A stretch of 27,694 bases of DNA from Pararhodospirillum photometricum DSM 122 (GTDB lineage Bacteria; Pseudomonadota; Alphaproteobacteria; Rhodospirillales; Rhodospirillaceae). Below, one piece after another: positions 8 through 17,804 of the stretch (position 1 is its first letter; the number at the start of each line of letters is the position of its first letter). The stretch is from positions 1,267,626-1,295,319 of the forward strand of contig NC_017059.1 in assembly GCF_000284415.1 (NCBI RefSeq), written 5' to 3'. Position numbers and translations under genes: made by a program. The notes under the pieces are model-generated. The model was not told the origin of the DNA and ran no database searches. It saw only the letters and a list, made by a program, of their open reading frames with translations.

Positions 8-463
8 TCACGGCACCTCCGGGGGATCGGCCTCGGGGACCAACTGACCGCGCAGGGCCTGGGCCTCGGCGTCGAGGGCCGCCACCTTGGCCACGTCGGC
101 GGGATCGGGCGCGCTCCCCTGGGCCAGTGCGGCGGCAACCGCCCGCGCCGGACGGATCGACGCGGCGTCGATCTCGTGCAGCCGGCGCACGATCTCGGGC
201 CGCCGCGCCCGGGCCCGGGCCAGAAGCTCGGCCTCGGTCAAGGAGCGCACGGCCCAGGCTAGGGTGATCACCGGAAGGGAACCGCTCTCGTCATATCCCC
301 AAGCGGCGCCGTCCATGGTCAGGGCCTGCGTGGCCGAATCGAAAGACGCCAGGGTGCTTTCGCGCACGTGGTAGATTCCGTGGCCGGCTAGGGTGTCGTC
401 GCTGGAGTCAGCCAAATCGGGCGGTAAAGCTTCGATAATGGCGCCTTTAGCGGTCGCGTACAT
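8..463 (-). CDS. Tail-fibre-assembly-like phage protein (151 aa)
   Basis: Last complete gene of the structural module, directly after the 906-aa fibre-like gene. The start is supported by a TAGGAGG ribosome binding site that overlaps the upstream stop codon. The N-terminal half is a small beta-rich segment. The C-terminal half (about residues 75-145) is helical and charged, with a pattern like the small proteins found after tail-fibre genes in proteobacterial prophages (EIVRRLHEIDAASIRPARA, then a second helix). By position it may be a fibre chaperone or assembly factor; that is inference from context, and no diagnostic domain is certain. An ATG at 6-8 overlaps its TGA stop (TGATG), so another minus-strand gene probably begins here and runs off the left edge. 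Confidence 0.7.
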   Translation of the reverse strand: MYATAKGAIIEALPPDLADSSDDTLAGHGIYHVRESTLASFDSATQALTMDGAAWGYDESGSLPVITLAWAVRSLTEAELLARARARRPEIVRRLHEIDAASIRPARAVAAALAQGSAPDPADVAKVAALDAEAQALRGQLVPEADPPEVP

Positions 464-471
464 GGGGCCTC

Positions 472-3192
472 CTACACCTTAGCCAGACGGCCTCCGGTGT
501 TCTCGTAGTATGATGAAGCGGTCTCACTAAGAGCGATTGAAAAAATACCGGCGTTAGGCCCCATCGAATAGGCCCCTCCCAGAGACGCTGTGCGATCGTA
601 AGCTGTATTTGTCGTGGCAATCGTTAAGTCAGGGACTATGGCGTCAAGATACGTGCTTGTAACCGACCCCGGAACAAAAACATCTCGGAAGTCGTGTGTT
701 GGGCCGGCACTTGAAAGAAAACTGGTTGGATAGCCCAAATCCACTCGCACCGCCCCTGTATTAACCCAGGATTTATTACCCTGACGGTCCCACACAGAGA
801 GGACACCCGACGATGCCTGAACGCGTATACCGTCGCAGTACTGCCACACATTTCCCCACAGCCCAACAATACCTCGATATGTCGCGGTCGCAACATCAGT
901 TGCGTTGACTGTGGCAGGTGACCCTTCATTAACCCGCCCCAGGCCGACCACCCCCTGAGCATCGGTCGTCCCCATTTCAATGAAAGCCAGCATCTGCAAG
1001 GCTGCGCACTGGTAGACCGACCACAGCATGAAACCCGTCACGCCCCCCGCGTTGCGGGCAGCACAGCGGGCTTGGTAATCGGTGAAGGAGATATTGGTTA
1101 GTGGCATAACCCCAGCCACAGAAGCCACTTTGGTGCCGCCGCTGTCGCTGCCTTGATACTTGCCAACCCAAAACTGATTGACCGGCGCGCCATCCTTGTA
1201 AAAAGCCGGATGGAGCACAAAGCCATCCAGGGGTTGATCGCTGATCCACCAACAGGTCTTCCCGGCCTGTGCGCTGCCCGTTGGGGCCGGGGCCACGCGG
1301 TAATAGAACTTCGGGACGCGGATCATGACCTGCCCGTCGATGGTGACCGGCACAAGATTGCCCCACACCGGATGGGTGTTGAACGCGGCGCCCCCCAGGG
1401 CGTAATCGCTGCCCGACAGGGTGTTGCCGGCCTTGTCCACCCGAGCCCAGGTGCCCGAGCCGCCACCGGTCGCGACCAGAGCAATCCCCAACACATGGGC
1501 CGGGTCGCCAAAGGCGGCGCCCATCTTGCCATAGACTGTGGCCCCGCCGTCGCGGCTCCAAAACAACAAGGTATCGACCCCGCTGCCGGTTGACAGCGCG
1601 GGGGGTGTGCCGCCCTCCCAGGTCACGCCGGTCCAGGTCAAGACACGATCGCCGCCGCCGATCAGTTCGACCTGGACCATGTGCAGACCTGAGGCACTCC
1701 AGCCGCTGAAAGACACCGTGATGTTGGCGGTGGGTGTCAGGCTGAAGGACGCGGCCTGGGCGACATTAAACACCACCGCCGAGGCCCTAGCGCCCAGGGC
1801 CTGATGGGTCAGGGCCACGCCATGGGCCCGGCCGCCGCTCACCACAACCCCGCTCAGACTGCCCCCGGTGATGACCACCGCGTCGGCGTTCTGCGCGGCC
1901 AGGGTGCCGCTGGCACTGCTGTCCTCGCCGCTCACCGGCCGGTTGAGGGCCACGACCCAGGCCGCGCCCAGAACATCGGCCACCAGAAGAACCCGGCGAC
2001 CGGCCACGCTCAAGGCCGAGGCCCCGCCAGCCAGGGCCGCGCTCACGCTGGCCCCGGTTGCGCCCTCGACCCACAGAGCGGCGCCATCGCCCAGAGAGGC
2101 CGGCGTGGGCACACTGAGGACGGCCGATGCCCCCAGGACGAAGCGCGCGCCGCTATCGCTCGCCGCAACCGTGCGGCTAGTCCCGGCCGCCACGCTGATC
2201 GTGGAGCGCCACACCGGCCGGGCCGCCTCCAGCGTGCCGGGCACCGTGGTGCGCGCCGCTACCCGCCACGCGCCGTCCCCCTCGTGGACCAGCCAGACCC
2301 GTTCCGACACCAAGGCCAGCGCCGTAGTCCCGCCCTCCAAAGTGCCGCTGGCAACCTGAAGGGTGGCACTGCCCTGAAGCGCGGTTTCCAGCCACAGGGC
2401 GTCACCGGCCGTAAAACCATCGCCGCTAAGGATCACCGTGCCGCCGGCCGGGACCACCACAAGGGCGCCGATCTCGTCGGCGCTCACGGTGTGGGGGCTG
2501 GTCACGGAAAGGACCCGGCTCCAGGCACCGGCTGTGGTGCTGCCCTCCAGACTGACCGCCACGGCCGGCACCACACGGGCGTCGGCGAGATCTCCCGTCC
2601 CCGAGGCCCGGGTCGGCGTGAGGGTCACGCTCCACAGTGTCTCGCTCAGAGCATAGGCGCTGACTTCGCCTTCCATCCAGCGTGTGGAATCGGCCTTGCT
2701 CACCACCCGCACCCATTGGCCGACACTCAACGCCAGCCCGGCCGGCACCTCCCAGGCCAGCAGTTGCCCGGTGGCAATGGGGTGGACCGTGGGACTGTCG
2801 CTTTGCGTGCCGGCCAGGGTCGCCCAGATCCCGGCGCGCTGGTCGCTCCACCAGCCCGGGGTGGCGACGTGGCGGGCGAGGCAAAGATAGGCCCCGCCCT
2901 CGCGGGTCACGAAATCACCGGGGGCATAGGCCTCGCCCGCCCGCCAAGCGCCGCGCGCCTGAACGCTGGGCGCGGGCAGGGTCAGGCGGGTGCCGCTGCC
3001 GTCGCTGTAGGTCAACACCAGATCCCAGCCATCCTGAGCGATCTGGGCGATGCCGCGGCCCGGGGTGCCGGTGGTCTGCTCCAGGGCAAGGCGCAGGGCG
3101 TGAAAATTGCGGTCCACTTCGGCGGCGGTCAGGGGCGCGCCCTTGCCGGCGCCCCAGTCGGGATCGCTGGTGCGGTAGGTAAGACTGACCAT
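472..3192 (-). CDS. Phage tail-fibre-like protein with C-terminal FGE/C-type-lectin-like domain, possible DGR target
   Basis: 906-aa structural protein, probably the receptor-binding fibre or tip. The N-terminus has the motif LTAAEVDRNF (about residues 22-31), common at the start of phage tail proteins. Residues about 78-125 resemble a small chitin-binding-like module (repeated W/Y/G: GAWRAGEAYAPGDFV). The middle (about 130-610) is beta-rich, alanine/serine/glycine-rich repeat-like sequence, including an ITGGSLSGV-type fibre motif. From about 613 to the end lies a domain like the formylglycine-generating-enzyme/C-type-lectin fold (FYYRVAP, GFVLHPAF, WQYCDGIR, ENTGGRLA). The last 35 residues have the layout of DGR variable regions (GG....GPNAG.F...L..TASS...NTGGRL). 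The DNA coding for the C-terminal domain is visibly poorer in GC than the rest, suggesting a separately acquired domain. Start ATG; GAGG about 11 bases upstream is a weak ribosome binding site. Confidence 0.8.
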   Translation of the reverse strand: MVSLTYRTSDPDWGAGKGAPLTAAEVDRNFHALRLALEQTTGTPGRGIAQIAQDGWDLVLTYSDGSGTRLTLPAPSVQARGAWRAGEAYAPGDFVTREGGAYLCLARHVATPGWWSDQRAGIWATLAGTQSDSPTVHPIATGQLLAWEVPAGLALSVGQWVRVVSKADSTRWMEGEVSAYALSETLWSVTLTPTRASGTGDLADARVVPAVAVSLEGSTTAGAWSRVLSVTSPHTVSADEIGALVVVPAGGTVILSGDGFTAGDALWLETALQGSATLQVASGTLEGGTTALALVSERVWLVHEGDGAWRVAARTTVPGTLEAARPVWRSTISVAAGTSRTVAASDSGARFVLGASAVLSVPTPASLGDGAALWVEGATGASVSAALAGGASALSVAGRRVLLVADVLGAAWVVALNRPVSGEDSSASGTLAAQNADAVVITGGSLSGVVVSGGRAHGVALTHQALGARASAVVFNVAQAASFSLTPTANITVSFSGWSASGLHMVQVELIGGGDRVLTWTGVTWEGGTPPALSTGSGVDTLLFWSRDGGATVYGKMGAAFGDPAHVLGIALVATGGGSGTWARVDKAGNTLSGSDYALGGAAFNTHPVWGNLVPVTIDGQVMIRVPKFYYRVAPAPTGSAQAGKTCWWISDQPLDGFVLHPAFYKDGAPVNQFWVGKYQGSDSGGTKVASVAGVMPLTNISFTDYQARCAARNAGGVTGFMLWSVYQCAALQMLAFIEMGTTDAQGVVGLGRVNEGSPATVNATDVATATYRGIVGLWGNVWQYCDGIRVQASSGVLSVWDRQGNKSWVNTGAVRVDLGYPTSFLSSAGPTHDFRDVFVPGSVTSTYLDAIVPDLTIATTNTAYDRTASLGGAYSMGPNAGIFSIALSETASSYYENTGGRLAKV

Positions 3193-3216: not shown

Positions 3217-3540
3217 TCAGGGAGTCAGGATCAAGGTCAGGCGAGCCCCGGTCTCGGAGCGCAGGGAAAGACGTCGAACCTGCTCGACATCGACCCAAAA
3301 GGCGCCGTCAGCGCTGCTCACGCGCACGGTTTCCGTCTCGCGCGCAATCTCGGTCCACACGGCATCGGCGGCGTTGCTCTTAGGCCGCAATGTGCCCACG
3401 CTGCGCTGTGTGGGAACCAGGGCGCGGGCACAGCTTTGCGCCTTGTCGGTGTTGATGGTGCCGGTCGCGGCCACCACGGCGGTTTCCTGCCGGGCCACCG
3501 CTTGGCGCGCCCGCACCGCGCGCGTTAGAACATCAACCAT
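3217..3540 (-). CDS. Small phage structural protein (107 aa), unknown
   Basis: 107-aa protein with no domain I recognise. I chose the ATG at 3540 because GAGGAGAGG lies just upstream; the frame stays open further upstream, but that part only translates the dispersed repeat at 3553-3600. The protein starts with a basic helix (MVDVLTRAVRARQAVARQET) and continues with short beta-like stretches (FWVDVEQVRRLSLR). It lies between the 386-aa gene and the fibre-like gene, in the same direction, so it is likely a minor tail or fibre-connecting protein; this is context only. Confidence 0.65.
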   Translation of the reverse strand: MVDVLTRAVRARQAVARQETAVVAATGTINTDKAQSCARALVPTQRSVGTLRPKSNAADAVWTEIARETETVRVSSADGAFWVDVEQVRRLSLRSETGARLTLILTP

Positions 3541-3552
3541 GAAGCCTCTCCT

Positions 3553-3600
3553 CAAGGAATGGAGGAGCCTGGGGAGGCCAGCCTCCCCGGCCTTCCCTCT
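3553..3600. repeat. Dispersed palindromic repeat, degenerate copy (forward)
   Basis: Contains the self-complementary core CTGGGGAGGC..GCCTCCCCGG at 3569-3590 followed by CCTTCCCTCT, a diverged copy of the 37-bp repeat seen at 8922, 12351, 14100 and 17768. It lies immediately beside the stop codon of the 386-aa gene (3602) and just before the ribosome binding site of the 107-aa gene, so it would form a hairpin in the mRNA between the two genes. Confidence 0.75.
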
Positions 3601-3601
3601 C

Positions 3602-4762
3602 TTACGCGAGCCACCCCCACCGCACCGTACACCCGGCATGCAAAGCCACCGGCTCCACCCCTTCGGGGTCCACGCTCCAAGTGAGGAAGTCGCGGGTCAG
3701 GGCCATGCGCGCCCCGCCCTGGGCATCAAGCAAGCGGCACAGCCACAAGGCGGCCCCCAAACTCTGGGCCGGATTGCCAAGACACACCGCCCCCGCCAAC
3801 CACTGGCCCGTCGGCAGGGCCCGAAACACCGGCACCAGATCCGCGCCCACCACATAAACCCCCGCCTGCCCCGAGGCGCTCAGGCGGCCAGAGGCGGTGT
3901 CAACGGCGGCGGGAACCACCCCTATCACCAAGCGATCCCCGGCCCACAACCCACCGATCCGCGCTTCCGGGGCGGGGGCTCCCTCGGGCTCGGCGGCCTG
4001 AACCATCAAGCCCCAGGGCAGGCTGTCGCTCCCGTCCACCCCGCCCATCTCGAAGCCCACCCCCGGGGCGCCCCCTGGCACAAGGCTGTACAGCCGATGG
4101 CGCTCGACCGCCCCCACCCGCCGGGTGGCCGCCACCCAAAAGCGCCCGGCCCAGGCAGCGACCGCCGTAGTGCGCCAGACCACCAGACCGTCGCCCTGTT
4201 CCGGGGGCGCCTCGACCAGCCGACGGCTTAGGCCCAGCGTGCTGGTCTCGACCCCGAGCGGCGCCCAGCCCTCGCTGGCTGGCAAGGCGGTGGTGTGGGT
4301 GGCAACAAACAAGGTCTCGCCCAAAACCTCCAAGCCGGCGTCACCGGCCAGAGCCCCAATGACGCTCCCGGTTTCGGGATCGGTCACCACGCTCCCCAAG
4401 GGCTGAACGGTGGGCGCTTGGTCCCAGGCCGGGCTGGCCAGCACGAGGCCGACACCCTCTTGCAGCCCGCACACGGCGAAGCCCTCCCCGCCCCACGGCC
4501 ACAGCCGGGGCCGCGCCAAGCGGACAAACGGTGGCCCCACCGCACTGGGCAGGGCGGCCAACCCCGGGCCGGCCTGACGGAAGGCCAGCAGCGACGCGGC
4601 ATCGGCGCTCAAGCGCACCCCGGCCAGCCCGCCCGAAGGCCACAAACACAGGTCGGCCAGCCCGGTAACCCGTCCCCGGGTTCGCCCCGTGGCCTCCAGC
4701 GCAGTGGCCGTGACGCCGGCCAGCCCGCCAAGGCGCTCATCAAACGCAAAAACCACGCTCAC
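3602..4762 (-). CDS. Phage structural protein (386 aa), unknown
   Basis: Large beta-rich protein with many WAG/GLWAG/GRFWVA-type motifs, no signal peptide and no recognised catalytic motif. Position between the 664-aa protein and the fibre-like protein suggests a tail, baseplate or receptor-contact protein; inference only. No ATG is available at the beginning of the frame. I place the start at GTG 4762 (VSVVFAFDERLGG), preceded by a G-rich GGGGGGG stretch that may act as the ribosome binding site; a TTG at 4807 would add 15 unlikely residues. The start lies inside a possible 26-codon gene in another frame (4740-4820), so translation may be coupled. Confidence 0.7.
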   Translation of the reverse strand: MSVVFAFDERLGGLAGVTATALEATGRTRGRVTGLADLCLWPSGGLAGVRLSADAASLLAFRQAGPGLAALPSAVGPPFVRLARPRLWPWGGEGFAVCGLQEGVGLVLASPAWDQAPTVQPLGSVVTDPETGSVIGALAGDAGLEVLGETLFVATHTTALPASEGWAPLGVETSTLGLSRRLVEAPPEQGDGLVVWRTTAVAAWAGRFWVAATRRVGAVERHRLYSLVPGGAPGVGFEMGGVDGSDSLPWGLMVQAAEPEGAPAPEARIGGLWAGDRLVIGVVPAAVDTASGRLSASGQAGVYVVGADLVPVFRALPTGQWLAGAVCLGNPAQSLGAALWLCRLLDAQGGARMALTRDFLTWSVDPEGVEPVALHAGCTVRWGWLA

Positions 4763-4820
4763 CGGCGCCAGCCCCCCCCAGGGCCGACACGGTGGCGAAG
4801 GGATCAAGATACACCATCAT
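4740..4820 (-). CDS. Possible 26-aa small protein or coupling leader
   Basis: A short reading frame starting ATG ATG GTG (MMVYLDPFATVSALGG...) whose first ATG overlaps the TGA stop of the 664-aa gene in an ATGA arrangement, the standard layout of translationally coupled phage genes. It ends 23 bases inside the following 386-aa gene. Because the 386-aa gene lacks a good ATG of its own, this frame could either encode a real small protein or deliver ribosomes to the GTG start of the next gene. It is too short for a family call. Confidence 0.4.
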   Translation of the reverse strand: MMVYLDPFATVSALGGAGAGERGFCV

Positions 4821-6811
4821 GACGCTCCGAGGCTGAGGGTGGGAACAAGACCGAAGGCGCCGGCCGGGGTCACGTGCACGGTGTGCTCGACCCGGTCGAG
4901 GCCGCGCAGGGGCCGCAACGCCAGACAGACATCGGTGGGCACCTGGGAGAGCAGGGCGCGCGGGCTGACCGTGCCGTGGCGCCGCGCCCAAATGTAGGCG
5001 TCCTGCTCGGCCCAGAGATTACGCAAGCACAAGCGCTGCAACAGGTCCCCGGCGGTCCACTTGGCCACGCTGGCCAAGGCGTCGGTGGGCTGCTGGGCGC
5101 TGAAGTCATAAAAAGGAATGGCGAAGGGATCGTCGTCGCTCACCCCCAGGGCGTGGATGGTCTCGGCGCTCAGGGCATAGTCGTCCCAGGCGGCCTCGGC
5201 CACGGTGTCGGCCCCCGCCGCCGGCCGCAGGAACGTGCCGCCCCCACCAAGCGACCCGGCCAGCACCAGCTCGACCGAACAGCCGTCCTCGTCCCACGCC
5301 AACCGCAGCGACACCACCTTGCCCCGCACCTGCCCCTCGGGCAGCACCGGACTGTGCAAGACCACGCTACAGTCGAGGTCCAAGGACAGCGCCGCCGCCG
5401 TCCAGCCGGGCAAGCGGGCCCGCACACTCACACAGCGCTGGGCAAAGGCCAGCCGAACGGCCAGAACCCGCAGCAGGTGGGCCACCGCCTGACGCCCGCG
5501 CGACGTGAGGGCAAAGCTGGGATAGAGGGGGTCGCCAATGGGCAGACCGGTCTCGGCCTCGCCGGACCTGACCTCATCCAAGCCGCTGGGTGTTGAAACG
5601 TCGGCGCTCGCCTGAAGGCTGACCCGAGCCCGCGAGAGCGAAAGAAGACTATCACAGTCCGGCACCGTGCTGTCGCTCTCGTCCTCGGCCGCGTCGCACA
5701 CGCCAACATCGCGCAGACCAAAGCTGATCTGCTCGCCGCCTTGGGCCGGGGGCGCCCCCGGGGCCAGATGGCTGGTCAGGCGGCACACCACGGTTTCGCG
5801 CCGTTTTTGCCGAAAGTCCCAGCGCACCCGCAGCACGGGCCAGTAGGCGCTCTTGGCAAACGAGATCCAGCCGGCAAACAGACCGGCTGGAAACAAGCTG
5901 GAGCGCGCGGCGGTGGGGCCAAAATCAACGACGCCATCCAGACTGATCCCGCTGCCTGTCCCGACCACGAGGACGCGCCCGTCTTCGCTGGTGACGGCGC
6001 TGGGGTCGTCGGTGAGGTTGGACTCGAAGGCGGGCAGGTCCTGGGCGACCAGGGCGCTTTCGGTGATGAGATAGCCGGTTTCGCCGCCCAACCGCTGGCC
6101 GACGCGCGGCCAGCCATCGGCAAAGTCGGCTTCCGGCGACAAGGTGACAAGGGCGCCGCCGGCCTCGCGGGCGATGAGGGCACCGAAGTCGGCGAGCGCC
6201 CCGCCGCGCTGGGTCCAGGTGGTGACCATGCGGCCCTCGATCCAGGCCGGGGGCGGGCCGTCGGGCTGGCTGAGGGTCAGGCTCCCTTCGGCCAGACTCT
6301 CGGGGCCAAAGGTCAGGGTCCGGCGTCCCTCCAGAGCGTGCGACACCAAGACCCCCCCGGTCAGGCGATCCACACACAGGCGGGCGAACCAGCCTTCCAG
6401 GATCTCGTCGGGCTCGTCCTCGCGGCCCTCACTGATAAACAGGGCATCGTAGGCCGGCGCGACCTTGTAAGGCGCCAGGGCGGCGGCGGTCAGGGCCTCG
6501 GTGTCGCCGGTGCGGGCGTCGAGTTGAAGGGTAAGAAACGGCCCGGTCAGGCCATCGGGCAGTTGGGTCAGGACCCCAAAAAACAACGGCATGACGGCGC
6601 CGTCCACCCGGGTGGACAAGTAGGCGTGCACAAGGCCGTCGGGGCCGCCGATCCGAGACGAGCGCCGGGCCACGACCACGCGGGCATAGGGGGCCTCGCC
6701 CTCCTCGGCCCGGATCTCCAAGGCACGGATGGCCTCGTCGGTACGGGCGTGCTGCGCGGCATCAAAGGGAGTGCCCGGGGCGACCCAGGCAAAGTAGAGG
6801 GCCTCGGGCAC
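4817..6811 (-). CDS. Large phage tail/baseplate protein (664 aa), unknown
   Basis: Second-largest structural protein of the module. The start codon is GTG (6811), supported by GGAGGAAG six bases upstream; the gap to the preceding gene is only 14 bases. It has no recognised enzymatic motif. The N-terminal third (about 1-160) contains mixed alpha/beta sequence (YFAWVAPGTPFDAAQHARTD, YARVVVARRSS, MPLFFGVLTQLPDG) suggesting a tail-hub or baseplate-type fold. The rest is beta-rich with acidic loops. Cysteines are scattered without a metal-site pattern. Given its size and place between the neck genes and the fibre gene it is probably a central tail or baseplate component; that is inference. Confidence 0.75.
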   Translation of the reverse strand: MPEALYFAWVAPGTPFDAAQHARTDEAIRALEIRAEEGEAPYARVVVARRSSRIGGPDGLVHAYLSTRVDGAVMPLFFGVLTQLPDGLTGPFLTLQLDARTGDTEALTAAALAPYKVAPAYDALFISEGREDEPDEILEGWFARLCVDRLTGGVLVSHALEGRRTLTFGPESLAEGSLTLSQPDGPPPAWIEGRMVTTWTQRGGALADFGALIAREAGGALVTLSPEADFADGWPRVGQRLGGETGYLITESALVAQDLPAFESNLTDDPSAVTSEDGRVLVVGTGSGISLDGVVDFGPTAARSSLFPAGLFAGWISFAKSAYWPVLRVRWDFRQKRRETVVCRLTSHLAPGAPPAQGGEQISFGLRDVGVCDAAEDESDSTVPDCDSLLSLSRARVSLQASADVSTPSGLDEVRSGEAETGLPIGDPLYPSFALTSRGRQAVAHLLRVLAVRLAFAQRCVSVRARLPGWTAAALSLDLDCSVVLHSPVLPEGQVRGKVVSLRLAWDEDGCSVELVLAGSLGGGGTFLRPAAGADTVAEAAWDDYALSAETIHALGVSDDDPFAIPFYDFSAQQPTDALASVAKWTAGDLLQRLCLRNLWAEQDAYIWARRHGTVSPRALLSQVPTDVCLALRPLRGLDRVEHTVHVTPAGAFGLVPTLSLGAS

Positions 6812-6825
6812 GGCGACTTCCTCCG

Positions 6826-7341
6826 TCAGACTTCTTCAAGCACCAAACGCCAGGGGTGCAGACCGTCCCACTCCTCCAGCCCTGCCGACCAGTCGCGCAC
6901 CATCATCAACAGGCGCGGGCGCAGCGACACACAGACCGGGCGGTCGTGGGGGGCGATGCTCACCGCGCGGCCGGCGACCTCGGTCACGGGATGGGCAGCG
7001 CCGTCGCTGTCGTGGGCCTGAACGCTCCCGGCCACAATGTCGCGCTCGGCGGTCCAGGCATTGGTCCCCGGGGCCAGCAGAACCCCCAGGCGGTTGGCGG
7101 CCTCGACGCTCAGGGTGACGCCCGGCCACAAGCCAGCAAAGGCCGGCGGGCGAACATCACTGGCCGACAAGGTCAGGACATAGCGGGCCCCGGGCAGGGC
7201 GGCGAAGTGGGCGGTGCCGCTCTGGTCGCGCCAGAACTCGCCGCGCGGCACCGGGGTGAGGACATGGCGCGTGCCCCGGGCACTCCAGCGGGCCAGCAGG
7301 GCCGGGCCATCAAGCACCAAAAGGGTGTCGGCCTCGCTCAT
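6826..7341 (-). CDS. Phage tail protein (171 aa), unknown
   Basis: Beta-rich protein (LLVLDGPALLARW, ARYVLTLSASD) ending in a tryptophan-rich tail (RDWSAGLEEWDGLHPWRLV). The start is GTG 7344 or ATG 7341; both overlap the stop codon of the 71-aa gene, consistent with coupled translation, and I chose the ATG. There is no signal peptide or membrane segment. It lies between the neck/tail-terminator genes and the 664-aa protein, where siphophages have distal-tail proteins and podophages have tail-hub proteins; no specific family can be named from sequence alone. Confidence 0.7.
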   Translation of the reverse strand: MSEADTLLVLDGPALLARWSARGTRHVLTPVPRGEFWRDQSGTAHFAALPGARYVLTLSASDVRPPAFAGLWPGVTLSVEAANRLGVLLAPGTNAWTAERDIVAGSVQAHDSDGAAHPVTEVAGRAVSIAPHDRPVCVSLRPRLLMMVRDWSAGLEEWDGLHPWRLVLEEV

Positions 7342-7556
7342 CACACCCCCCGTTGCGGTCGGGCCAGCAGGCGCCGGCCGCCCTCCATGAGGGCGTCAAT
7401 GCCCTGGGGATCACCGGCCACACCTTGCTGGCGCGACGAGGCAAGCGGCGAGGCCAAGACGGCGGCGGTGTCGTCCGACAGGCGGGGGGTCCCGCCCAGA
7501 CCACGCAGCGCAGAGGCCACCGTGGTGGTCCCGGACAGCGGTTCACGATCGTTCAT
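7341..7556 (-). CDS. Small phage protein (71 aa), unknown
   Basis: 71-aa protein (MNDREPLSGTTTVASALRGL...) starting at ATG 7556, which overlaps the TGA of the preceding gene (ATGA), and ending where the next gene begins. Both junctions look like translational coupling, which argues that it is real although the frame continues open upstream (a shadow of the 131-aa gene). It is rich in Ala, Gly, Leu and Arg, with a predicted helical C-terminus (GIDALMEGGRRLLARP). No family is recognised. Its position would suit a tail-assembly or head-tail component. Confidence 0.65.
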   Translation of the reverse strand: MNDREPLSGTTTVASALRGLGGTPRLSDDTAAVLASPLASSRQQGVAGDPQGIDALMEGGRRLLARPQRGV

Positions 7557-7948
7557 GAGTCCCTCGCAAACATGGCGTGATACGGAATAGACAGGGGCAC
7601 GACGCAAAACCCCTCCTCGAAGCGGGCGCTGGCCCGGGCCGGGGCGCCGGTCACCAGGACCAGCCCCTCGGTCGCCAGCCAGCGCCCGCCCAAGCCCTGG
7701 GCCACGGCCGCGCAAACGGTGTCGGCAGCGGCGGGGTCGCTGGCCTGGGGGTCGTACAGCAGCACACTCAGCGCGCCCGCTTCCGCCCCCCAACCGCGCC
7801 CGCCCTCGGCGCTGGTCGGCGCCAGGACGGCCCGTGCCCAGGCCTGGCCGGCGGGCGGGCGGGCGCGGCTCCCCTCCCCCACCAGGGGACGCCCCAACAA
7901 CGGCGCCAAAGCAGCCAGCAAGACAAGGCGAAGACCCGGGGCGCTCAT
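7553..7948 (-). CDS. Tail-terminator-like protein (DUF3168-like), 131 aa
   Basis: Resembles the DUF3168/tail-completion family in length and layout: an N-terminal helix (MSAPGLRLVLLAALAPLLG), a central stretch with a DPQASDPAAADTVCAAVAQGL helix, and a C-terminal beta strand series (RFEEGFCVVPLSIPYHAM). In siphophages such proteins cap the tail tube and join it to the head connector. The start ATG (7948) overlaps the end of the 122-aa gene by four bases. The family assignment rests on pattern and position, so it is moderate; a neck protein of a short-tailed phage is an alternative. Confidence 0.6.
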   Translation of the reverse strand: MSAPGLRLVLLAALAPLLGRPLVGEGSRARPPAGQAWARAVLAPTSAEGGRGWGAEAGALSVLLYDPQASDPAAADTVCAAVAQGLGGRWLATEGLVLVTGAPARASARFEEGFCVVPLSIPYHAMFARDS

Positions 7949-8313
7949 AACACCGCCTCCGGGCGCACGGTGACGCGAAACAACAGCCCAAGCGCCGCCG
8001 AGGACTCGGCCACCTCGATCACGGTCCAGGTCTGCCCCTCGGCCACCAGGGCGTCGGTCGGCCGGGGGGGGGGAGCGTCGGCGGTGAGCACCAAGCCCCG
8101 GCGGTCGCCGGGCAGGCGCACGGGATCAACCGGGGCGTCCGGGGAGGTGCTCAGGAACACCAGGGAAACGGGATGCTCGCTCACGCAGGCGTCGGTCGGG
8201 TCGAAGGCGGGATCGACCCGGCGGCGCAAGGTCGCGACCAACACGGCATCGCCCGCCGCCGCCAAAACACGGGTAAAGGCGGCCAGCACGCGGGCACGGG
8301 TGATCGGGGTCAT
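7945..8313 (-). CDS. Head-closure/neck-like phage protein (122 aa)
   Basis: Small protein downstream of the DnaT-like adaptor and upstream of the tail-terminator candidate, the usual place of head-closure (stopper) proteins. It opens with a helix (MTPITRARVLAAFTRVLAAAG) and continues with beta strands (VSLVFLSTSPDAP, TDALVAEGQTWTVIEVAES, LLFRVTVRPEAVL); the TDALVAEGQTWTV segment is typical of small neck proteins in proteobacterial prophages. It is separated from the preceding gene by six bases and overlaps the following one by four. Function is inferred from order. Confidence 0.6.
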   Translation of the reverse strand: MTPITRARVLAAFTRVLAAAGDAVLVATLRRRVDPAFDPTDACVSEHPVSLVFLSTSPDAPVDPVRLPGDRRGLVLTADAPPPRPTDALVAEGQTWTVIEVAESSAALGLLFRVTVRPEAVL

Positions 8314-8319
8314 GGCGGC

Positions 8320-8844
8320 TCACCTCCGGCAGACAACAGAGCCCGGCCCCAGCAGCGGGGCCAGCAGAGCCAGGACCAGGGGCGGGATCGGCGCCGGGCC
8401 GGCCCCGCTCTCGCGCACGGTGGTGGTGCTCAGGGCATCCACGGTCAGATGTTCCTCAATAAGGCGGCCCTCGGGGTCGGAATCGGGCAACAGGGGCGCC
8501 GACAAGGCGCGGGCCGCCAGTTCGCAACAGGCCGCCACGATCTCGCGCGGCACCTGATCGTCGGCGATCGGCGCCCCTTGCGCATCCCGGGCGCCCACGC
8601 GCGGCCATCCCAGGGCCTGATCGCGGCCCCGGCGCGGCCGGCCGGAAAACCGCGCGGCAAAACGCCCCTCGAGACAGGCGGTGGCCTCGCGCAAGGCGCC
8701 TTCGCGCAGGGCCTCGGCGGCGGCGGTCCAGGACGCGGCCAGGGGGGTGTGGGGGCGATTGCCCCAGTAAGTATCGGCCGCGCTCAGGGCGACCAGGGAG
8801 TCGGCATCGGCGCGGCCGCTGCCATCCTCGGCGATCAGGGACAT
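8320..8844 (-). CDS. DnaT-like phage protein, probable head-tail adaptor (174 aa)
   Basis: Matches the pattern of the small phage proteins labelled putative DnaT-like ssDNA-binding protein: a YWGNR strand, then ALREATACLEGRFAARFSGRPRRGRDQALGWPR and a helix VPREIVAACCELAARAL. Despite the name, such genes sit in the connector module next to the capsid gene and are probably head-tail adaptors. I chose ATG 8844, which has AAGG eight bases upstream; GTG 8850 is an alternative two codons earlier. It follows the 148-aa gene after the inverted repeat pair at 8868-8958. Confidence 0.75.
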   Translation of the reverse strand: MSLIAEDGSGRADADSLVALSAADTYWGNRPHTPLAASWTAAAEALREGALREATACLEGRFAARFSGRPRRGRDQALGWPRVGARDAQGAPIADDQVPREIVAACCELAARALSAPLLPDSDPEGRLIEEHLTVDALSTTTVRESGAGPAPIPPLVLALLAPLLGPGSVVCRR

Positions 8845-8867
8845 GGTCACACCTTGGGAAGTTAAGG

Positions 8868-8904
8868 AAGGGAAGGCTGGGGAGGCTCGCCTCCCCAGAC
8901 CCCT
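8868..8904. repeat. Dispersed palindromic repeat (reverse copy of a perfect inverted pair)
   Basis: A 37-bp unit with an internal palindrome (GGGGAGGC TC GCCTCCCC). It is the exact reverse complement of 8922-8958, 17 bases away, and identical to 13909-13945. The pair lies between the 148-aa gene stop (8963) and the DnaT-like gene start (8844). Confidence 0.95.
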
Positions 8905-8921
8905 GATGACTTAAGGGGAAG

Positions 8922-8958
8922 AGGGGTCTGGGGAGGCGAGCCTCCCCAGCCTTCCCTT
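8922..8958. repeat. Dispersed palindromic repeat (forward copy of a perfect inverted pair)
   Basis: Exact 37-bp reverse complement of 8868-8904. The two together can form one long hairpin of 37 bp with a 17-nt loop, or two smaller hairpins. It ends four bases before the stop codon of the 148-aa gene; in minus-strand mRNA this structure follows that gene and could weaken or protect read-through into the adaptor gene. Confidence 0.95.
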
Positions 8959-8962
8959 CTCC

Positions 8963-9409
8963 CTACGCGGCCGGCCCAACAAGCGCCGACGCCCGAGGCG
9001 GCCGCCCCAGCCACGTCACCACCAAAGGCAAGCCGACCCAAGGCGCCCCCGACCACGCCAAGGGATCGGCCCCCGGCCCCAGCCGAGCCGGCCCCGCCAC
9101 CACCGTGGAAGGCCCACCGTCGCCCAGAGTCAGCGTGGCCGTGCCGGTCAAACCGCCAAAGAACGCCGAGACGGCCAGAGGGCTCCAACAGCGGGCAGTA
9201 AAGCGCAGAACAAGACGCTGGCGCCCCACATCCTCGCGAGCTGGCCCCAAGCTGCCGTCGCCGGCCTCTTGCCACCACACGCGGCTGTCTTGCTCCAGGC
9301 TCAAACGCGCGTCATAAACCGGACCCAACTCCTGGGCCGGGCCATCGGCGGGCGTAAAAACGATCAAGGGGTCGCTGCCAGGAAGCAGCGTGGCGAGGGC
9401 GAGACTCAT
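8963..9409 (-). CDS. Phage structural protein (148 aa) after the capsid gene, unknown
   Basis: Beta-rich protein with strands such as PLIVFTPADG, RVWWQEAGDG, QRLVLRFTARCW and TATLTLGDGG. It lies 24 bases downstream of the major capsid gene and before the adaptor. This position is often taken by a head decoration protein, and the beta-sandwich-like composition would suit either a decoration protein or a tail-tube-like subunit; neither can be settled by reading. ATG 9409 is preceded by CAGGAGCGGACC. Confidence 0.65.
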   Translation of the reverse strand: MSLALATLLPGSDPLIVFTPADGPAQELGPVYDARLSLEQDSRVWWQEAGDGSLGPAREDVGRQRLVLRFTARCWSPLAVSAFFGGLTGTATLTLGDGGPSTVVAGPARLGPGADPLAWSGAPWVGLPLVVTWLGRPPRASALVGPAA

Positions 9410-9433
9410 GGTCCGCTCCTGTTGCAGGCCGGA

Positions 9434-10447
9434 TCAACCGTTGGTGCGCAGGGCGGCGATGCGAATGGCCTTGCGCTCGTACACGCGCTGCCAATTGGCG
9501 GCGAGGGCCAGTTCGGCGTTGGTCGGAGCCGGTCGGGCCATGCTGGCACCCACCCAGCGGATGCCGCGCGGGTGCAGCAGGAAGTGCCGGCGCGAATGAA
9601 GGATCTCCATGCCCTCGCCATCGCCGGCCCCCGGCACCCGCTCGGTCTCGACCGGCATTTTCGGCTGGCCCTCGCCATAGGCAAAGGCGCCCTCGGCAAA
9701 CAAAACGCTGGTATAGACGGGCCGGTGGGCGCCCTGGGTCACGGGCAGGCCATCGTCCACGATGACGCGGTAGCCCAGGTAGGTCTGGTAGCGCAGATCG
9801 CCGCTTTGGGGATCGTAGACCGGCAGCAAGGTGCCGAGCCGTTGCAAGCGGGTGTGGACCACCGAGTGCAAGGCGATCGCCGAGAGGCGGCTTTTCATGT
9901 CACCCAGGGTTTGGGCGGCGGCCAAAATGGCTTCGTCACTGATCACCTCGGCGGCGGTGGGGGCGCCGGCGTCGTCGGTCGCCACCGAGTGGATCATGTC
10001 GCCCCCGTTGGCGGCAACATTGGCGGCCAGAACGCCGCTCAGGCTGGCGATCAAGAGTTTTTGGCGATCGCGCACCCAAAACGGCGCCACCAGATCGGCG
10101 ACGGCACGCAACGGGTCGGTGGCGAGCAAGGCGGCGGTCAGGTCCATGCTCGACCACGCCTTGTTGCGCACATGCTTGATGGCGACATCACGCCCCGCCG
10201 TCAAACGGGCCGGGGCGACCAGACTGTCGGGATCGTCGGACCCGACATTGGAGTCCCCCGACAGGTCGTTGAAAAACGGCAGGGGAAAGGTGGTGCCGCC
10301 CCCGGCCGCCAGGGCATCGAACTGGGCATCGCGGGCCACGACCCCGGACTGGACAAAGGCATCCAGCTCCAAGGAGCGCTGCACCAGATAGGGCTGGAAA
10401 ACCTCGGGAACGATCACGTCAGACAACCGGGTGGAAACCGTGCTCAT
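9434..10447 (-). CDS. Major capsid protein, gp13-like (337 aa)
   Basis: Forms the icosahedral phage shell. The sequence follows the gp13-like major capsid family closely: SDVIVPEVFQPYLVQRSLEL at residues 9-28, then QSGVVARDAQFDALAAGGG and FPLPFFNDLSGDSNVGSDD, then the block DVAIKHVRNKAWSSMDLTA, a LVAPFWVRDRQKLLIASLSGV helix, and a C-terminal beta domain (DGLPVTQ, VYTSVLFAEGAFAYGEG, ILHSRRHFLLHPRGIRW). Length is typical of the family. Start ATG 10447 with CAGGAGA upstream. It is preceded by the scaffold and portal genes, the standard head-module order. Confidence 0.92.
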   Translation of the reverse strand: MSTVSTRLSDVIVPEVFQPYLVQRSLELDAFVQSGVVARDAQFDALAAGGGTTFPLPFFNDLSGDSNVGSDDPDSLVAPARLTAGRDVAIKHVRNKAWSSMDLTAALLATDPLRAVADLVAPFWVRDRQKLLIASLSGVLAANVAANGGDMIHSVATDDAGAPTAAEVISDEAILAAAQTLGDMKSRLSAIALHSVVHTRLQRLGTLLPVYDPQSGDLRYQTYLGYRVIVDDGLPVTQGAHRPVYTSVLFAEGAFAYGEGQPKMPVETERVPGAGDGEGMEILHSRRHFLLHPRGIRWVGASMARPAPTNAELALAANWQRVYERKAIRIAALRTNG

Positions 10448-10475
10448 GGAAATCTCCTGGATCAGAAAGCGAGGA

Positions 10476-10967
10476 TCAGCGGGCCTGATCGCGCAGCACG
10501 CGCGCCAACTCGGGCTGGGTGCGCAGCAAGCGGCCCTGCTCAGTGAGGTTCAAGGTGTCGCGGGCAAAGGGATTGGGAACGGCGGCGCCCAGACGTACCG
10601 GCGGGATGCCCCCCCCGGCCGGCAGATCCCACCACGGGCCCGGCCCTTCGCGACGTCGGGTTTCCAGCCACTCGGTCAGGGCTGCCGGGCTGGCCGCGCT
10701 GTCGGCAAAGGCGGCGCGGGCCGCCTGGAGCACCTCGGCCCGAGCCTCGGCCCGCACTTGGGTGGTGGCACAGGCGGCCTCGACGGCGGCGGCAAGGCGA
10801 GCTTCCTCGGCCTGGGCCAGGGCCTCCCCCAGGCGGGTGATCTCGGCGGTGGTCGCCGCCAAATCCTCGGCCTGAAAAACAAAACCCCCGGCGGGGCCGG
10901 GGGCGTAGTGGGGACGCAAGGCCTCGGGAATGGCCTCTTCGCTCTCGTAGTACACGCGCAGGGTCAT
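10476..10967 (-). CDS. Capsid scaffolding protein (163 aa)
   Basis: Sits between portal and major capsid protein, the usual scaffold position. Its composition fits: an acidic N-terminus (MTLRVYYESEEAIPEALRPHY), a long charged alanine-rich helix or coiled coil at about residues 33-95 (EDLAATTAEITRLGEALAQAEEARLAAAVEAA), a proline/glycine linker, and a short C-terminal helix (LTEQGRLLRTQPELARVLRDQA) that would contact the capsid protein. ATG 10967 overlaps the portal stop codon (ATGA). Longer upstream extension of the frame is only a shadow of the portal gene. Confidence 0.82.
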   Translation of the reverse strand: MTLRVYYESEEAIPEALRPHYAPGPAGGFVFQAEDLAATTAEITRLGEALAQAEEARLAAAVEAACATTQVRAEARAEVLQAARAAFADSAASPAALTEWLETRRREGPGPWWDLPAGGGIPPVRLGAAVPNPFARDTLNLTEQGRLLRTQPELARVLRDQAR

Positions 10968-12319
10968 GGGTGGGAATCCTCCTGGGAGTCGCGCCGCTGG
11001 GCGTCGGCCGTGGGGTCGAAGGCCCACGACAAGACGCCCCGACGACGCAGTTCGGTCAGATAGGCCTCGCGGCTGAGGTCGCCGGCCGCCCGGGCCTGGG
11101 CCAGGGCATCGAGGTCGGCCTCGTCGCCGGCGTCGGTAAAATCGGTATTGACGTCGATGCTGCCGCCCGCGCCCAGCCCGGCCCACGCGGCCATCAGGAC
11201 CAGGGCCTGCTCCAGGCCGTCGCGCAATTGCAGGGCCCACGCCTTGATCGACGAATTGGCCCGGCTCTCGGCAATGGCGGTGGCGGTGGCCGTCGTGGCG
11301 CCCGTGCGGCTCAACAGGGGCTCCATGGCAAGCTTGTCCATCTGCGCCTCCAGCCGGCTCAGGTCGCGTTCGCCGGCTTGCAAGGCGGTGCCCTGGGGCT
11401 CGACGTAATACCAACGGGCCTGGGCGTCGGGGGTGTGCAAAAAGGTCTTGGGCCCCACGGCCAGCGCCCCGCCGTCCGGCCCCTCGGGCGCCGGGCCGGA
11501 AAGCGCCAGCATGGCAAAGCGCCCCAGGGTCAAAATGTTGCGCTGGTCACTGGCCGACTGCCAGTGAGCCACATTGAGGTGAGCCAAGCCCTCCAGGGGC
11601 GGGCGGGCCTGCAACGCGCCCACGGCGGGCCCCAACCGCAAGGGCACCAACGGCACCGTGTCCAGACCGGTGCGTCCCTGACGCAGCGGCGCCCAGCTTG
11701 GGCCGTCGTGCTGCCAGATCTCCCAATACCCGGGCTCCAGCACCTGAACACGGGCCCGTGGGCGCAGGAAAAACCCGTCGCGCTCGCCTACCTCGTAGCG
11801 CACCCGGGCATGGGCCAAGCACCAGCGCCCCTCGACCACCCCAGCCTGGGCCGCGATCACCTCCTCGGCCGGCACCACCACCAAGTAGGGCCGCCGCCGG
11901 GCAGCCGGCACCTCGGGCCCCGGCATATCCACCTGAAGCCAAGCAATGCCGGTGGTCAAAGCCTCGGCGAACCAGCGCTGGGCCACGGTGTGCACGCTGT
12001 TGCCCAGCAAGTCCGCGTCGTCAAGCCAGCGGCGCAGCACCAAGGGCACATCGGCCCCCAGCACCAACGGCCGGGCAAACACCCGCCCGGTGATGTCGCG
12101 CACTGTTTCCTCAAAGGCGGGAAACAACACGGCGCGCTCCAGGCGAGCACGGTAGGCCTCAAGATCCTCAGCCTCGTAGCGCGGCAAATAGGCCTCGCCC
12201 GCCGCCCGCATGGCCAACGTCCCCCCCATCAGGGTCCGCACCAACGCCCAACGGGGCAGCAAACTCACGTACTCTGGATCGGGACGCGCAGGATCGCCCC
12301 CGGCCTTGACCTCGACCAT
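10964..12319 (-). CDS. Portal protein, DUF4055 type (451 aa)
   Basis: Forms the dodecameric ring through which DNA enters the head. It resembles the DUF4055 portal family: N-terminal PEYVSLLPRWALVRTLMGG, LPRYEAEDLEAYRARLERAVLFPAFEETVRDITGRVFARP at about 48-88, the YLVVVPAEEVI region, and the conserved helices LEGLAHLNVAHWQSASDQRNIL and TATAIAESRANSSIKAWALQLRDGLEQAL. It lies directly after terL. ATG 12319 has purine-rich GAGGAGAAGGGAAGG upstream. No truncation is visible. Confidence 0.88.
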   Translation of the reverse strand: MVEVKAGGDPARPDPEYVSLLPRWALVRTLMGGTLAMRAAGEAYLPRYEAEDLEAYRARLERAVLFPAFEETVRDITGRVFARPLVLGADVPLVLRRWLDDADLLGNSVHTVAQRWFAEALTTGIAWLQVDMPGPEVPAARRRPYLVVVPAEEVIAAQAGVVEGRWCLAHARVRYEVGERDGFFLRPRARVQVLEPGYWEIWQHDGPSWAPLRQGRTGLDTVPLVPLRLGPAVGALQARPPLEGLAHLNVAHWQSASDQRNILTLGRFAMLALSGPAPEGPDGGALAVGPKTFLHTPDAQARWYYVEPQGTALQAGERDLSRLEAQMDKLAMEPLLSRTGATTATATAIAESRANSSIKAWALQLRDGLEQALVLMAAWAGLGAGGSIDVNTDFTDAGDEADLDALAQARAAGDLSREAYLTELRRRGVLSWAFDPTADAQRRDSQEDSHP

Positions 12320-12350
12320 GGCCTTCCCTTCTCCTCTTTCAAAGAAATCG

Positions 12351-12387
12351 AGGGGTCTGGGGAGGCCGTGCCTCCCCAGCCTTTCTT
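12351..12387. repeat. Dispersed palindromic repeat (forward copy)
   Basis: 37-bp copy with central palindrome GGGGAGGC..GCCTCCCC and small changes in the tail (CTTTCTT). It abuts the TerL stop codon (12387-12389) and precedes the portal start, so transcripts carry the hairpin between terL and portal. Confidence 0.9.
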
Positions 12388-13841
12388 CACCAGCGCAGCG
12401 CCGTGACCCGACCCGCCGCCCCTCCCTCGTAAAACGTCAGGGCCAAGGCATCGGCCAAGTCAGGGCTGCGCACGCCACGACGCTTGAGGGCTTCCTTGCT
12501 CTCGAGCTTGAGCCGCCCCGACCCCTCAAACCCATACCGCGGGCACACCAACTCACCCGCCAAGTCCTGGGCCAGATCGCGGGGCAAGCCAGCAAACCCG
12601 GGCTGGCTATCACGCAGCCACGCCCGCAAACACAGCCAAAGATGATCGCGCAACAAGGCGCCGCGCTCCTCGCCGACCACACGCTCAGGCGCCGCCGTGG
12701 CAACGTTGACCCCCACCACCGGCACCCCCTCCTCGCGTAGCCGATCAACCACCCCAGCGCCCACGCCGATCTCATCGACAAAAACCCGCTGCGCCCGCCA
12801 CAACGCACTCAAGCGCCGCGCTTGCCCGGCCACCGCCATGGTGTCGCGCCCGGTCGTCACCTCCAGGGCCTCAACAGCCGGACCCGCCCGCAACACAAAA
12901 ACCGTGCGGTCATCGCCAAAACGCGCCACGTCCAGACCAAGCCGCCGCTCGTGACCGCCCCCCTCGGCAGTGCGACCCAAAGCCGCCTCGGCCCACTCCA
13001 AAGCAATCAGCACATCGTCGTCCTGGCGCGGAAAAACGCCATCGGCCCGCACCCGCACGATGTTGGACCCCTCGCCATACTTGCGCACCAAGCCGGGCCG
13101 ATAGCCGGGATCAACAAGGGGGCTGTCGGCACAGCAAAAATGCAAGGCGGTGTACGCCGAGCGGTCCTGCTTGTGCGAGCGGGCAAAAAAGCCAGTGTTG
13201 CGGGTCGGGTTGCCAACCATCAGCAAACGAGCCCCCGGCCCCGACAACGCCCCCTCAGCAACCTCAAACACCGCATCAGGCACCCCGGACGCCTCCTCAA
13301 TCACAAACATCAAGGCCCCGCGCCCCTCCCCCCCGGCCGGCCCGCCAGCATGAAACCCCTGCAAAGCATCGGGGTTGTCGGGCCGGGCGGTGCGAGCCAC
13401 CGCAAACCACTCGCGCGGCCGGCCCCGATCGGCAATCCGCTGCGCCGATAAGTCAAACAGAGCCGACAGCCGCAAAGCGCCGGGCAAACCCAAGCTCTCG
13501 GCCCGCAAATCGGCACCCCGGCACAAACGCGCCAACTCGGACCACAAAATCTGCTCAAGCTGACTGGCCGTCGGCGCCGTGCACGGCGTCTTGGAATAGT
13601 CAAAACACTCCAAATGCCACCAAATCGCCGCCCCCGTCGCCGTCGTCTTGCCTACCCCATGCCCCGCCCGCGCCGTCACCTTGGCCCCCGACGGCGCCAC
13701 GGCCGCCAATAACGCCGCTTGCTGCACCGTCGGCGTCAGCCCCAACCGCTGACGCGCATACAACACAGGATCAGCCCGCCACAGCGTGCGCAGGTGAGCG
13801 TAACGGTCGAAAAGATCCGACGACAAGAAAGAGCCAGGCAT
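12387..13841 (-). CDS. terL: Terminase large subunit (484 aa)
   Basis: Packaging motor ATPase and nuclease. The ATPase has a Walker A-like motif ARAGHGVGKTT at residues 58-68, a Walker B strand LMFVIEEA at 177-184 and a coupling motif MVGNPTRNTG at 208-217. The RNase H-like nuclease domain follows: LGLDVARFGDD (D304), VFVDEIGVG (D356) and SPDLADALAL (D461/D464), so all acidic catalytic positions look intact. I chose ATG 13841 because GGGAGG lies just upstream; the frame runs 15 codons further but without a good start. It is separated from terS by an unusual 328-base intergenic region. Confidence 0.93.
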   Translation of the reverse strand: MPGSFLSSDLFDRYAHLRTLWRADPVLYARQRLGLTPTVQQAALLAAVAPSGAKVTARAGHGVGKTTATGAAIWWHLECFDYSKTPCTAPTASQLEQILWSELARLCRGADLRAESLGLPGALRLSALFDLSAQRIADRGRPREWFAVARTARPDNPDALQGFHAGGPAGGEGRGALMFVIEEASGVPDAVFEVAEGALSGPGARLLMVGNPTRNTGFFARSHKQDRSAYTALHFCCADSPLVDPGYRPGLVRKYGEGSNIVRVRADGVFPRQDDDVLIALEWAEAALGRTAEGGGHERRLGLDVARFGDDRTVFVLRAGPAVEALEVTTGRDTMAVAGQARRLSALWRAQRVFVDEIGVGAGVVDRLREEGVPVVGVNVATAAPERVVGEERGALLRDHLWLCLRAWLRDSQPGFAGLPRDLAQDLAGELVCPRYGFEGSGRLKLESKEALKRRGVRSPDLADALALTFYEGGAAGRVTALRW

Positions 13842-13908
13842 GGAAACCTCCCGCCTCCGGCTCCATGGGGAGGCGAGAGGGCACAAAGGGGGGGAAGGGA
13901 AAGAGAGA

Positions 13909-14136
13909 AGGGAAGGCTGGGGAGGCTCGCCTCCCCAGACCCCTCCATTCCTTTAAGGACGACGCCCATCACAAAACGATGCAATATAATAAAAATGTAT
14001 TTATTTTTAATAATAATTATATTAATTATTTTAATAAAAATACACAATGTTTACGTATGACTTTCTGATCGCGCATACTCTCTGTTTTTCCATGAATGGA
14101 GGGGTCTGGGGAGGCGAGCCTCCCCAGCCTTTCTTC
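13909..14136. mobile_element. MITE-like element: inverted repeats flanking an AT-rich core
   Basis: Reverse copy of the dispersed repeat at 13909-13945 and forward copy at 14100-14136. The inverted match extends inward over CCATTC (13946-13951) and GAATGG (14094-14099), giving arms of about 40 bp around 142 bases. The core is almost all A and T in a GC-rich genome and encodes nothing obvious. The arrangement resembles a small non-autonomous element, but no transposase and no target-site duplication was identified; two independent repeat copies beside an AT-rich remnant is an alternative. Confidence 0.5.
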
Positions 14137-14169
14137 TTCCTTTCCCTTCTTCCTTTCCCTTCTTCCCTT
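14131..14169. repeat. Pyrimidine tandem repeat downstream of terS
   Basis: A 13-base unit TTCTTCCTTTCCC occurs twice in direct tandem (14131-14143, 14144-14156) followed by a partial variant. It lies between the right-hand dispersed-repeat copy and the TerS stop codon; the minus-strand transcript would be purine-rich here. Confidence 0.75.
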
Positions 14170-14778: not shown

Positions 14779-14817
14779 GGCAGGGTCCTCGTGGTCGAGC
14801 CGAACCGGCTCATCCAC

Positions 14818-14851
14818 CCAAAGGAAAAGGGCCGCTGGGGGGAGCGGCCCT
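14818..14851 (-). terminator. Rho-independent terminator between the 264-aa gene and terS
   Basis: Perfect 9-bp stem AGGGCCGCT/AGCGGCCCT (14828-14836 and 14843-14851) with a six-base G/C loop. On the minus strand the stem is followed by TTTTCCTTT. It would stop transcription coming from the 264-aa gene before it reaches terS, unless antiterminated. Confidence 0.7.
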
Positions 14852-14859
14852 CACACGAA

Positions 14860-14872
14860 TTTCATGATGAAA
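14860..14872. promoter_or_regulatory. Small palindrome upstream of terS
   Basis: TTTCATGATGAAA has perfect 6-bp arms around a central G, located between the stop of the 264-aa gene and the terminator hairpin. It could be a binding site for a phage regulator, but no promoter is evident next to it, so the call is weak. Confidence 0.3.
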
Positions 14873-14877
14873 CGACA

Positions 14878-15672: not shown

Positions 15673-15677
15673 GACAA

Positions 15678-15699: not shown

Positions 15700-15714
15700 C
15701 CACCATGCCGTTTT

Positions 15715-15735: not shown

Positions 15736-15741
15736 TTTCCG

Positions 15742-17739: not shown

Positions 17740-17767
17740 CACTTTCCCCCAAAAACCCTAAGGAATG

Positions 17768-17804
17768 AGGGGTCTGGGGAGGCAAGCCTCCCCAGCCTTC
17801 CCTT
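17768..17804. repeat. Dispersed palindromic repeat (forward copy) between glgB and glgX
   Basis: 37-bp copy with central palindrome GGGGAGGC..GCCTCCCC. It overlaps the glgB stop codon (17803-17805) by two bases, so the mRNA carries the hairpin right after glgB. This shows the same family seen in the phage module is present in chromosomal metabolic operons. Confidence 0.95.

Follow-up and report, generated by a model that had tools for sequence, protein, structure and literature searches.

A predicted receptor-binding lectin tip of a DGR-target family, orphaned on the fibre of a head-tail cluster in Pararhodospirillum photometricum

Introduction

Near one end of a 27,694-nt stretch of the Pararhodospirillum photometricum DSM 122 chromosome (NC_017059.1, positions 1,267,626 to 1,295,319; hereafter the window), a fibre-like ORF of 906 aa closes with the residues GGAYSMGPNAGIFSIALSETASSYYENTGGRLAKV, which raises the question of whether this protein is, or once was, diversified by a DGR. 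An earlier reading made from the letters alone (the sequence-only reading) had taken the last 35 codons for a DGR variable region, with the cassette expected just beyond the left edge of the window. We find instead that the fibre carries an orphan member of a family of DGR targets, and we consider it quite probable that this lectin tip was captured by a head-tail cluster of vertical descent, on whose fibre it would act as a fixed head whose alleles change by tract exchange and not by mutagenic retrohoming. Features and coordinates are collected in Table 1, in which W, B, C and D denote the window copy of the fibre end and three further copies in the same chromosome.

Table 1. Features of the fibre locus, its flanks and the related fibre ends. 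Positions refer to the window unless another record is named.
Feature	Position	Strand	Basis or remark
gp151, next gene	8..463	minus	D identical at residues 1-145, B at 1-57; C 65%
Fibre-like gene, 906 aa	472..3192	minus	ORF listing
Fibre parts (residues)	1-415; 416-562; 563-906		N-terminal part common to syntenic fibres; linker; lectin tip
Lectin tip, FGE-type C-type lectin (predicted)	475..1506	minus	homology to copies B and C from residue 563 (window 1506)
35 codons equivalent to DGR variable region of relatives	475..579	minus	6 of 9 AAY columns are NNY
Divergent block with variable-region equivalent	475..789	minus	59.4% to B (B vs C 97.5%)
86-nt tract identical to B	779..864	minus
Divergent block	880..993	minus	59.6% to B (B vs C 98.2%)
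167-nt tract identical to B	1067..1233	minus	overlaps 222-nt stretch 1075-1296 with 2 differences
Head-tail cluster (small and large terminase, portal, SPP1-gp13-like major capsid, further ORFs)	3217..15672	minus	syntenic in G001 and G027
Host glgX and glgB, cluster flank common to two genera	15742..20049	minus	NCBIfam
DUF7483 gene, phage-type structural	L006 18980-19948		between gp151 and host isocitrate dehydrogenase
Copy B fibre end	chromosome 2,199,454		template-peptide match
Copy C fibre end	chromosome 2,148,677		template-peptide match
Copy D fibre end, fragment in 66-codon frame	chromosome 1,580,678		template-peptide match

The fibre end and its family

Homologues of the fibre tip comprised 375 proteins, the best 120 of which were used and 119 compared for the spacing of their C-terminal end. 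Among the matches listed, 113 of these 119 keep the constant residues HGGxWxxGxxAGLFxLxVxxAASxSxTxIGGRLAKV at the same distances, which bears out the DGR-target layout that had been noticed at the fibre end. The suggestion of an FGE/C-type-lectin-like end likewise held: the tip profile matches TaqVP (5vf4) with an E of 4e-13, and the predicted structure confirmed a C-type lectin fold of the FGE type with the variable segment at the C-terminus. PHROG 5302 (‘tail protein’) matches fibre residues 619-904, and a Pfam search of 41 members assigned the tip to no family. Judged by homology, the fibre gene ends on its 3′ side in a C-type-lectin tip of a DGR-diversified phage family, with a predicted role in receptor binding. 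A scan of genome contigs led to one locus, and tblastn searches of phages and of plasmids yielded 3, 2, 5 and 4 records, none of which reaches 60% identity. An Ideonella plasmid region has no gene named reverse transcriptase in its annotation.

The DGRs of this family were read from 80 viral loci, 17 of which lack a readable C-terminal end; L084 was dropped from the other 63 as a false pattern match, leaving 62. In 41 of these 62 relatives the final 110 nt recur downstream in a template copy that A-only change can explain; a reverse transcriptase accompanies all 41 and occurs in two more, and Avd is present in those 43 and in one further relative. The screen admitted a template only if, out of 110 positions, no fewer than 100 were equal or A; this partly builds in the A share, but not the existence of the template copies. 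Over 33 codons, 429 of 449 mismatches between variable region and template fall at a template A, a count that leaves out the last two codons (482 of 575 when they are included). Nearly all templates have AAY at nine columns, and there 367 of 369 variable-region codons end in C or T; column 33, which lies outside the variable region, had been removed from this hypermutable set (367 of 410 with ten columns). In the phage cassette of L029, the reverse transcriptase matches RVT_1 (E 1e-23) and the Avd matches bAvd (E 1e-27).

Search for a DGR in the chromosome

The window sits in a single contig of 3,876,289 bases with a completeness of 100. An RVT_1 profile search of this contig gave no match at E<=10. 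The same profile found the reverse transcriptase in three of three DGR-bearing viral records and in none of 12 viral records judged DGR-less from their flanks, which may be fragments and represent 12 of the 13 DGR-less rows (L095 was left out). The L029 reverse transcriptase protein had no match in the chromosome either, in a search that lacked a positive control of its own, and a bAvd search returned none at E<=10, with a weak control in that the control genomes gave one sub-threshold match only. At the DNA level, a template search with positions 472-800 recovered, apart from the query segment, one fibre copy and three matches of 15-21 nt that look like chance, while a 34-aa template peptide matched only the four fibre ends in the whole genome (E 0.001-0.06). 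All these searches for reverse transcriptase, Avd and template concern the chromosome, and an unassembled plasmid might yet carry a reverse transcriptase.

The statement that the window contains no template or reverse transcriptase was therefore correct, and the searches of the entire chromosome likewise found none. The cassette expected beyond the left edge is not there: gp151 is followed by one DUF7483 gene and then by the host isocitrate dehydrogenase gene (icd), and the leftward search proposed in the sequence-only reading found no reverse transcriptase, Avd or template copy within 10 kb. The fibre is accordingly the third gene from the end of the structural module and not, as described before, the penultimate one. 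The tip is an orphan, a DGR-family target in a genome in which no DGR was found.

The head-tail cluster and its tip-less relatives

Portal relatives were detected in four of 98 genomes, namely this one, the second member of its genus and the two members of another genus, and the head-tail cluster is likewise present in 2/2 and 2/2 genomes of these two genera and in none of the other 94. The gene order from fibre to terS is kept beside glgX-glgB in G001 and G027, the two genomes in which the glgX flank could be read; the G008 contig ends about 2.3 kb past its capsid gene. Amino-acid identities to G001 and G027, respectively, are 0.82 and 0.79 for the major capsid protein, 0.83 and 0.78 for terL, 0.75 and 0.69 for the portal and 0.69 and 0.71 for terS, compared with 0.83 and 0.78 for glgB and 0.64 and 0.59 for glgX. 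Nine of ten cluster genes drop from G001 to G027 as the host genes do, terS being the exception. In the head genes dN is well below dS, although dS itself is high everywhere; the capsid has a dN of 0.13, similar to the 0.11 of glgB. Evolution is much faster in o401, o140 and the fibre. No integrase or replication gene was named among the cluster ORFs scanned, which were part of the total and included several without any family. From these comparisons, which cover four genomes, the cluster seems to have been vertically inherited as part of the host genome.

The main alternative is that the cluster is an ordinary decaying prophage, the outcome of separate integrations of one circulating phage near glgX with nothing domesticated. 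The capsid does point to live phages in its relation to the SPP1 coat protein (43.8%). It scores 26.1 bits against Gp13-like, just under the cut-off of 26.4, and matches PHROG 247. The cluster is moreover inverted here, glgX adjoining its terS side as opposed to its fibre side in G001 and G027; icd was not found beside the cluster in 12 kb of G027; and the fast evolution of the tail genes would also suit decay. However, the frames assigned to the cluster are open, the identities of nine of ten track host glgB and glgX with a capsid dN near that of glgB, and the distribution (every genome searched of two genera, none of 94 others) speaks against separate integrations. We regard this alternative as rather unlikely, and retain vertical inheritance of the cluster as the preferred reading.

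Several local features accompany the rearrangement and the cluster. The inversion relative to glgX shows at window positions 15672-15742 against L115 5067-5303 and L116, and the fibre end now lies near icd. Dispersed repeats of ~35-55 bp, mostly 84-100% identical and in both orientations, are common to all four distant stretches compared, at about 18929-18985 of L006 and at about 3551-3603, 8864-8980, 12334-12392, 13890-13965 and 14090-14144 of the window; we take these to be REP-like. An AT-rich spacer at 13925-14149, between terL and terS, has a GC of 0.33-0.36, compared with 68% in the window.

In the two syntenic relatives, the fibres of G001 (519 aa) and G027 (505 aa) match each other over their full length at 46%, but align with W only over residues 1-415 and 1-420 (N-terminal part, 47% and 41%). 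The tip was found in none of the 97 relatives searched. Since the G001 and G027 fibres are tip-less and no other relative has a tip, the tip is most simply explained, by parsimony over three genomes, as a gain in the lineage of P. photometricum and not as a loss in both relatives.

Descent of the tip

In a fibre tree of 65 tips, calculated without the variable region and rooted at the midpoint, W, B and C form one group (100/99) that adjoins eight DGR-bearing rows (93/87), within a larger group of 18 rows, 13 of them DGR-bearing. One step further out lies L026 (85/85), a DGR-less row whose 17-kb record contains no reverse transcriptase. Across the tree, the starred branches force at least eight changes of the DGR label, a number raised by the separate label given to short-flank rows, and at least six of the DGR-less label, which applies to 13 rows. 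As far as the tree can tell, DGRs come and go in this fibre family, and the W/B/C group likely descends from DGR-bearing ancestors.

This topology could also mean that a DGR acted on the present locus and was deleted in situ, its reverse transcriptase, Avd and template being lost downstream of the fibre, with no graft involved. The placement of W, B and C among DGR-bearing rows is what such a deletion would leave, as is the scatter of DGR-less rows over the tree. Yet the orthologous fibres of G001 and G027 are tip-less, which leaves nothing for a DGR to act on before the tip arrived, and the flanks retain no trace of a reverse transcriptase or Avd, making in situ deletion decidedly improbable. 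Under the capture of a tip from elsewhere, which we prefer, loss of the DGR may predate the arrival of the tip, because the nearest outer row, L026, shows no reverse transcriptase in its 17-kb record.

Mosaic relationship of the four fibre ends

The comparison of W with B alternates between near-identity and strong divergence: 222 nt with two differences and a 90-nt stretch with four stand beside blocks of 114 and 315 nt at 59-60% identity, and two shorter intervening blocks reach 79% and 91%. Set between the blocks at 59-60% are runs of full identity of 167, 86 and 64 nt; the longest compares with a maximum of 58 nt when the 197 mismatches were placed uniformly 10,000 times. Third positions differ in 25/38 and 69/105 codons of the divergent blocks, compared with 1/74 in the near-identical stretch. 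Recombination could account for the near-identical tracts; selection on the protein would not preserve third positions in this manner. That the four similar ends are an assembly artefact, as the identical tracts of 86-167 nt between distant loci might suggest, is very improbable given that their N-termini differ and that the blocks between the tracts are ~40% different and would not be made by collapse.

Within the 105 nt of the variable-region equivalent, W and B show 38 differences, of which 20 are at third codon positions, 5 at an A of B and 12 at an A of W, a comparison between paralogues and not between strains. Differences between W and its paralogues come in blocks and touch every codon position; they do not follow template adenines. 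The 315-nt block has a GC of about 0.52 in W, against 0.66, and this AT-richer W allele may have another source. At the protein level the W tip is 24-26% different from B and C, and therefore neither is its immediate donor. Copy D has the same tip end as B (0/168 differences), and its gp151 is identical to that of W over 145 residues; in the stretches of G001, G008 and G027 that were searched, nothing matched gp151.

Locus D (L025 7753-9846) contains the fibre-end fragment, gp151, a GH108 endolysin and a GTA_holin_3TM holin, with an adjoining lytic transglycosylase gene. The holin belongs to a Pfam family described as ‘for gene-transfer release’.

Wear of the hypermutable codons

W keeps NNY at six of the nine hypermutable codons, compared with 367 of 369 in the DGR-bearing relatives (Fisher p 9e-5), a difference that rests on a sample of nine codons counted as independent. 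Three of the nine W codons cannot be reached from AAY by A-only change, so that the residues at these places do not, as had been supposed, reflect A-directed mutation of AAY throughout. Copies B, C and D keep 8/9. The 13 DGR-less viral rows, several of which are near-copies, keep 98/117. These relatives (L026, L034, L062/L063, L065, L067/L076, L073, L079, L086, L088, L093 and L095) are scattered over the fibre tree, and their wear varies, with 4 to 9 of 9 codons kept. Loss (or gain) of the DGR looks recurrent in the fibre family.

A second codon comparison concerns variation between close copies. Outside the variable region B and C agree at 97% of 600 nt, and they differ at 0/9 hypermutable codons; DGR-bearing pairs (n=6, 93-99.7% identity outside the variable region) differ on average at 7.7/9. 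This mean leaves out five DGR-bearing pairs that are 100% identical outside the variable region, three of which differ at 5-7/9 codons and two at none; the latter two pairs are probably the same virus.

Although the fibre end is in register with DGR variable regions and relatives of the same group have complete cassettes, service by a DGR adjoining the window or elsewhere in the genome has practically no probability left and is already refuted for the chromosome, given a single contig without reverse transcriptase, Avd or template, a left flank formed by host icd, and copies B, C and D that are identical at all nine hypermutable codons. Of the claim that the fibre end is a DGR variable region, the family, the fold and the register of the variable positions stand; what falls is that it is in service, with no reverse transcriptase or template found in the chromosome and paralogues that differ block-wise.

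Discussion

Our preferred explanation runs as follows. The tip (residues 563-906), together with gp151, would derive from a prophage of the B/C/D type and would have reached the fibre of a vertically inherited head-tail cluster through homologous recombination. Once captured, the tip may act as a fixed receptor-binding head, and its alleles would turn over as tracts are exchanged among the resident copies or with newly arriving phages, and not by mutagenic retrohoming. A more ambitious version would have two sister genera keep a GTA-like particle, unrelated to RcGTA, beside glgBX; one species would have re-tipped it with the lectin head of a DGR phage and, dispensing with the mutator, would use the defective prophages B, C and D as a tip library swapped by gene conversion, with locus D as its lysis module. 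We hold this version to be speculative and on the whole doubtful. Endolysin relatives occur in all four cluster-bearing genomes, four of them in this genome including that of D, and because such relatives are common in these genomes, the presence of an endolysin says little on D as a lysis module.

A narrow literature search found nothing on DGR loss and, among the titles listed, nothing on gene conversion of DGR targets or on GTAs in Rhodospirillales, which is no proof of absence. The nearest parallels come from neighbouring fields. In the DiGReF survey (PMC3521204), DGR target paralogues without a variable region and one duplicated DGR without reverse transcriptase are described in genomes that keep a DGR; those cases likewise place target-like genes apart from a reverse transcriptase, but there another DGR is in the genome, whereas none was found here. 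Experiments in E. coli (PMC3945230) have shown that phages recombine with defective prophages via homologous segments, including side-tail-fibre genes. The mosaicism described there, which arises by relaxed homologous recombination, also shows stretches of near-identity bordered by diverged sequence in resident prophages; ours is read from sequence alone.

Among known DGR systems, TaqVP of Thermus aquaticus, TvpA and Mtd are variable proteins with the same FGE-type C-type-lectin fold, and differ from the present tip in that no reverse transcriptase, Avd or template was found here. The phage cassette L029 has a homologous fibre end at 49% identity, and its fibre has the C-terminus of P0012, which one source labels Rhodospirillum centenum. 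There the fibre is followed by a 94-aa gene, Avd, template and reverse transcriptase, whereas here it is followed by gp151, the DUF7483 gene and host icd. DGR targets are usually studied together with their mutator; the present locus instead offers a tip of a DGR family after the mutator has gone, with recombination as the visible source of change, and the loss of NNY is a codon signature that may tell served from orphaned targets.

With RcGTA and its kin (PMC9662315, PMC6821227) the cluster shares a seemingly vertical inheritance and head genes under purifying selection. It appears to be set apart by an SPP1-gp13-like capsid and by a tip of a DGR-phage family. RcGTA-like clusters numbered 0 in 24 Rhodospirillales genomes in a published survey (PMC6821227). 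If the cluster were a GTA, it would combine an SPP1-like capsid with a changed receptor-binding head, in an order for which that same survey counts no RcGTA-like cluster.
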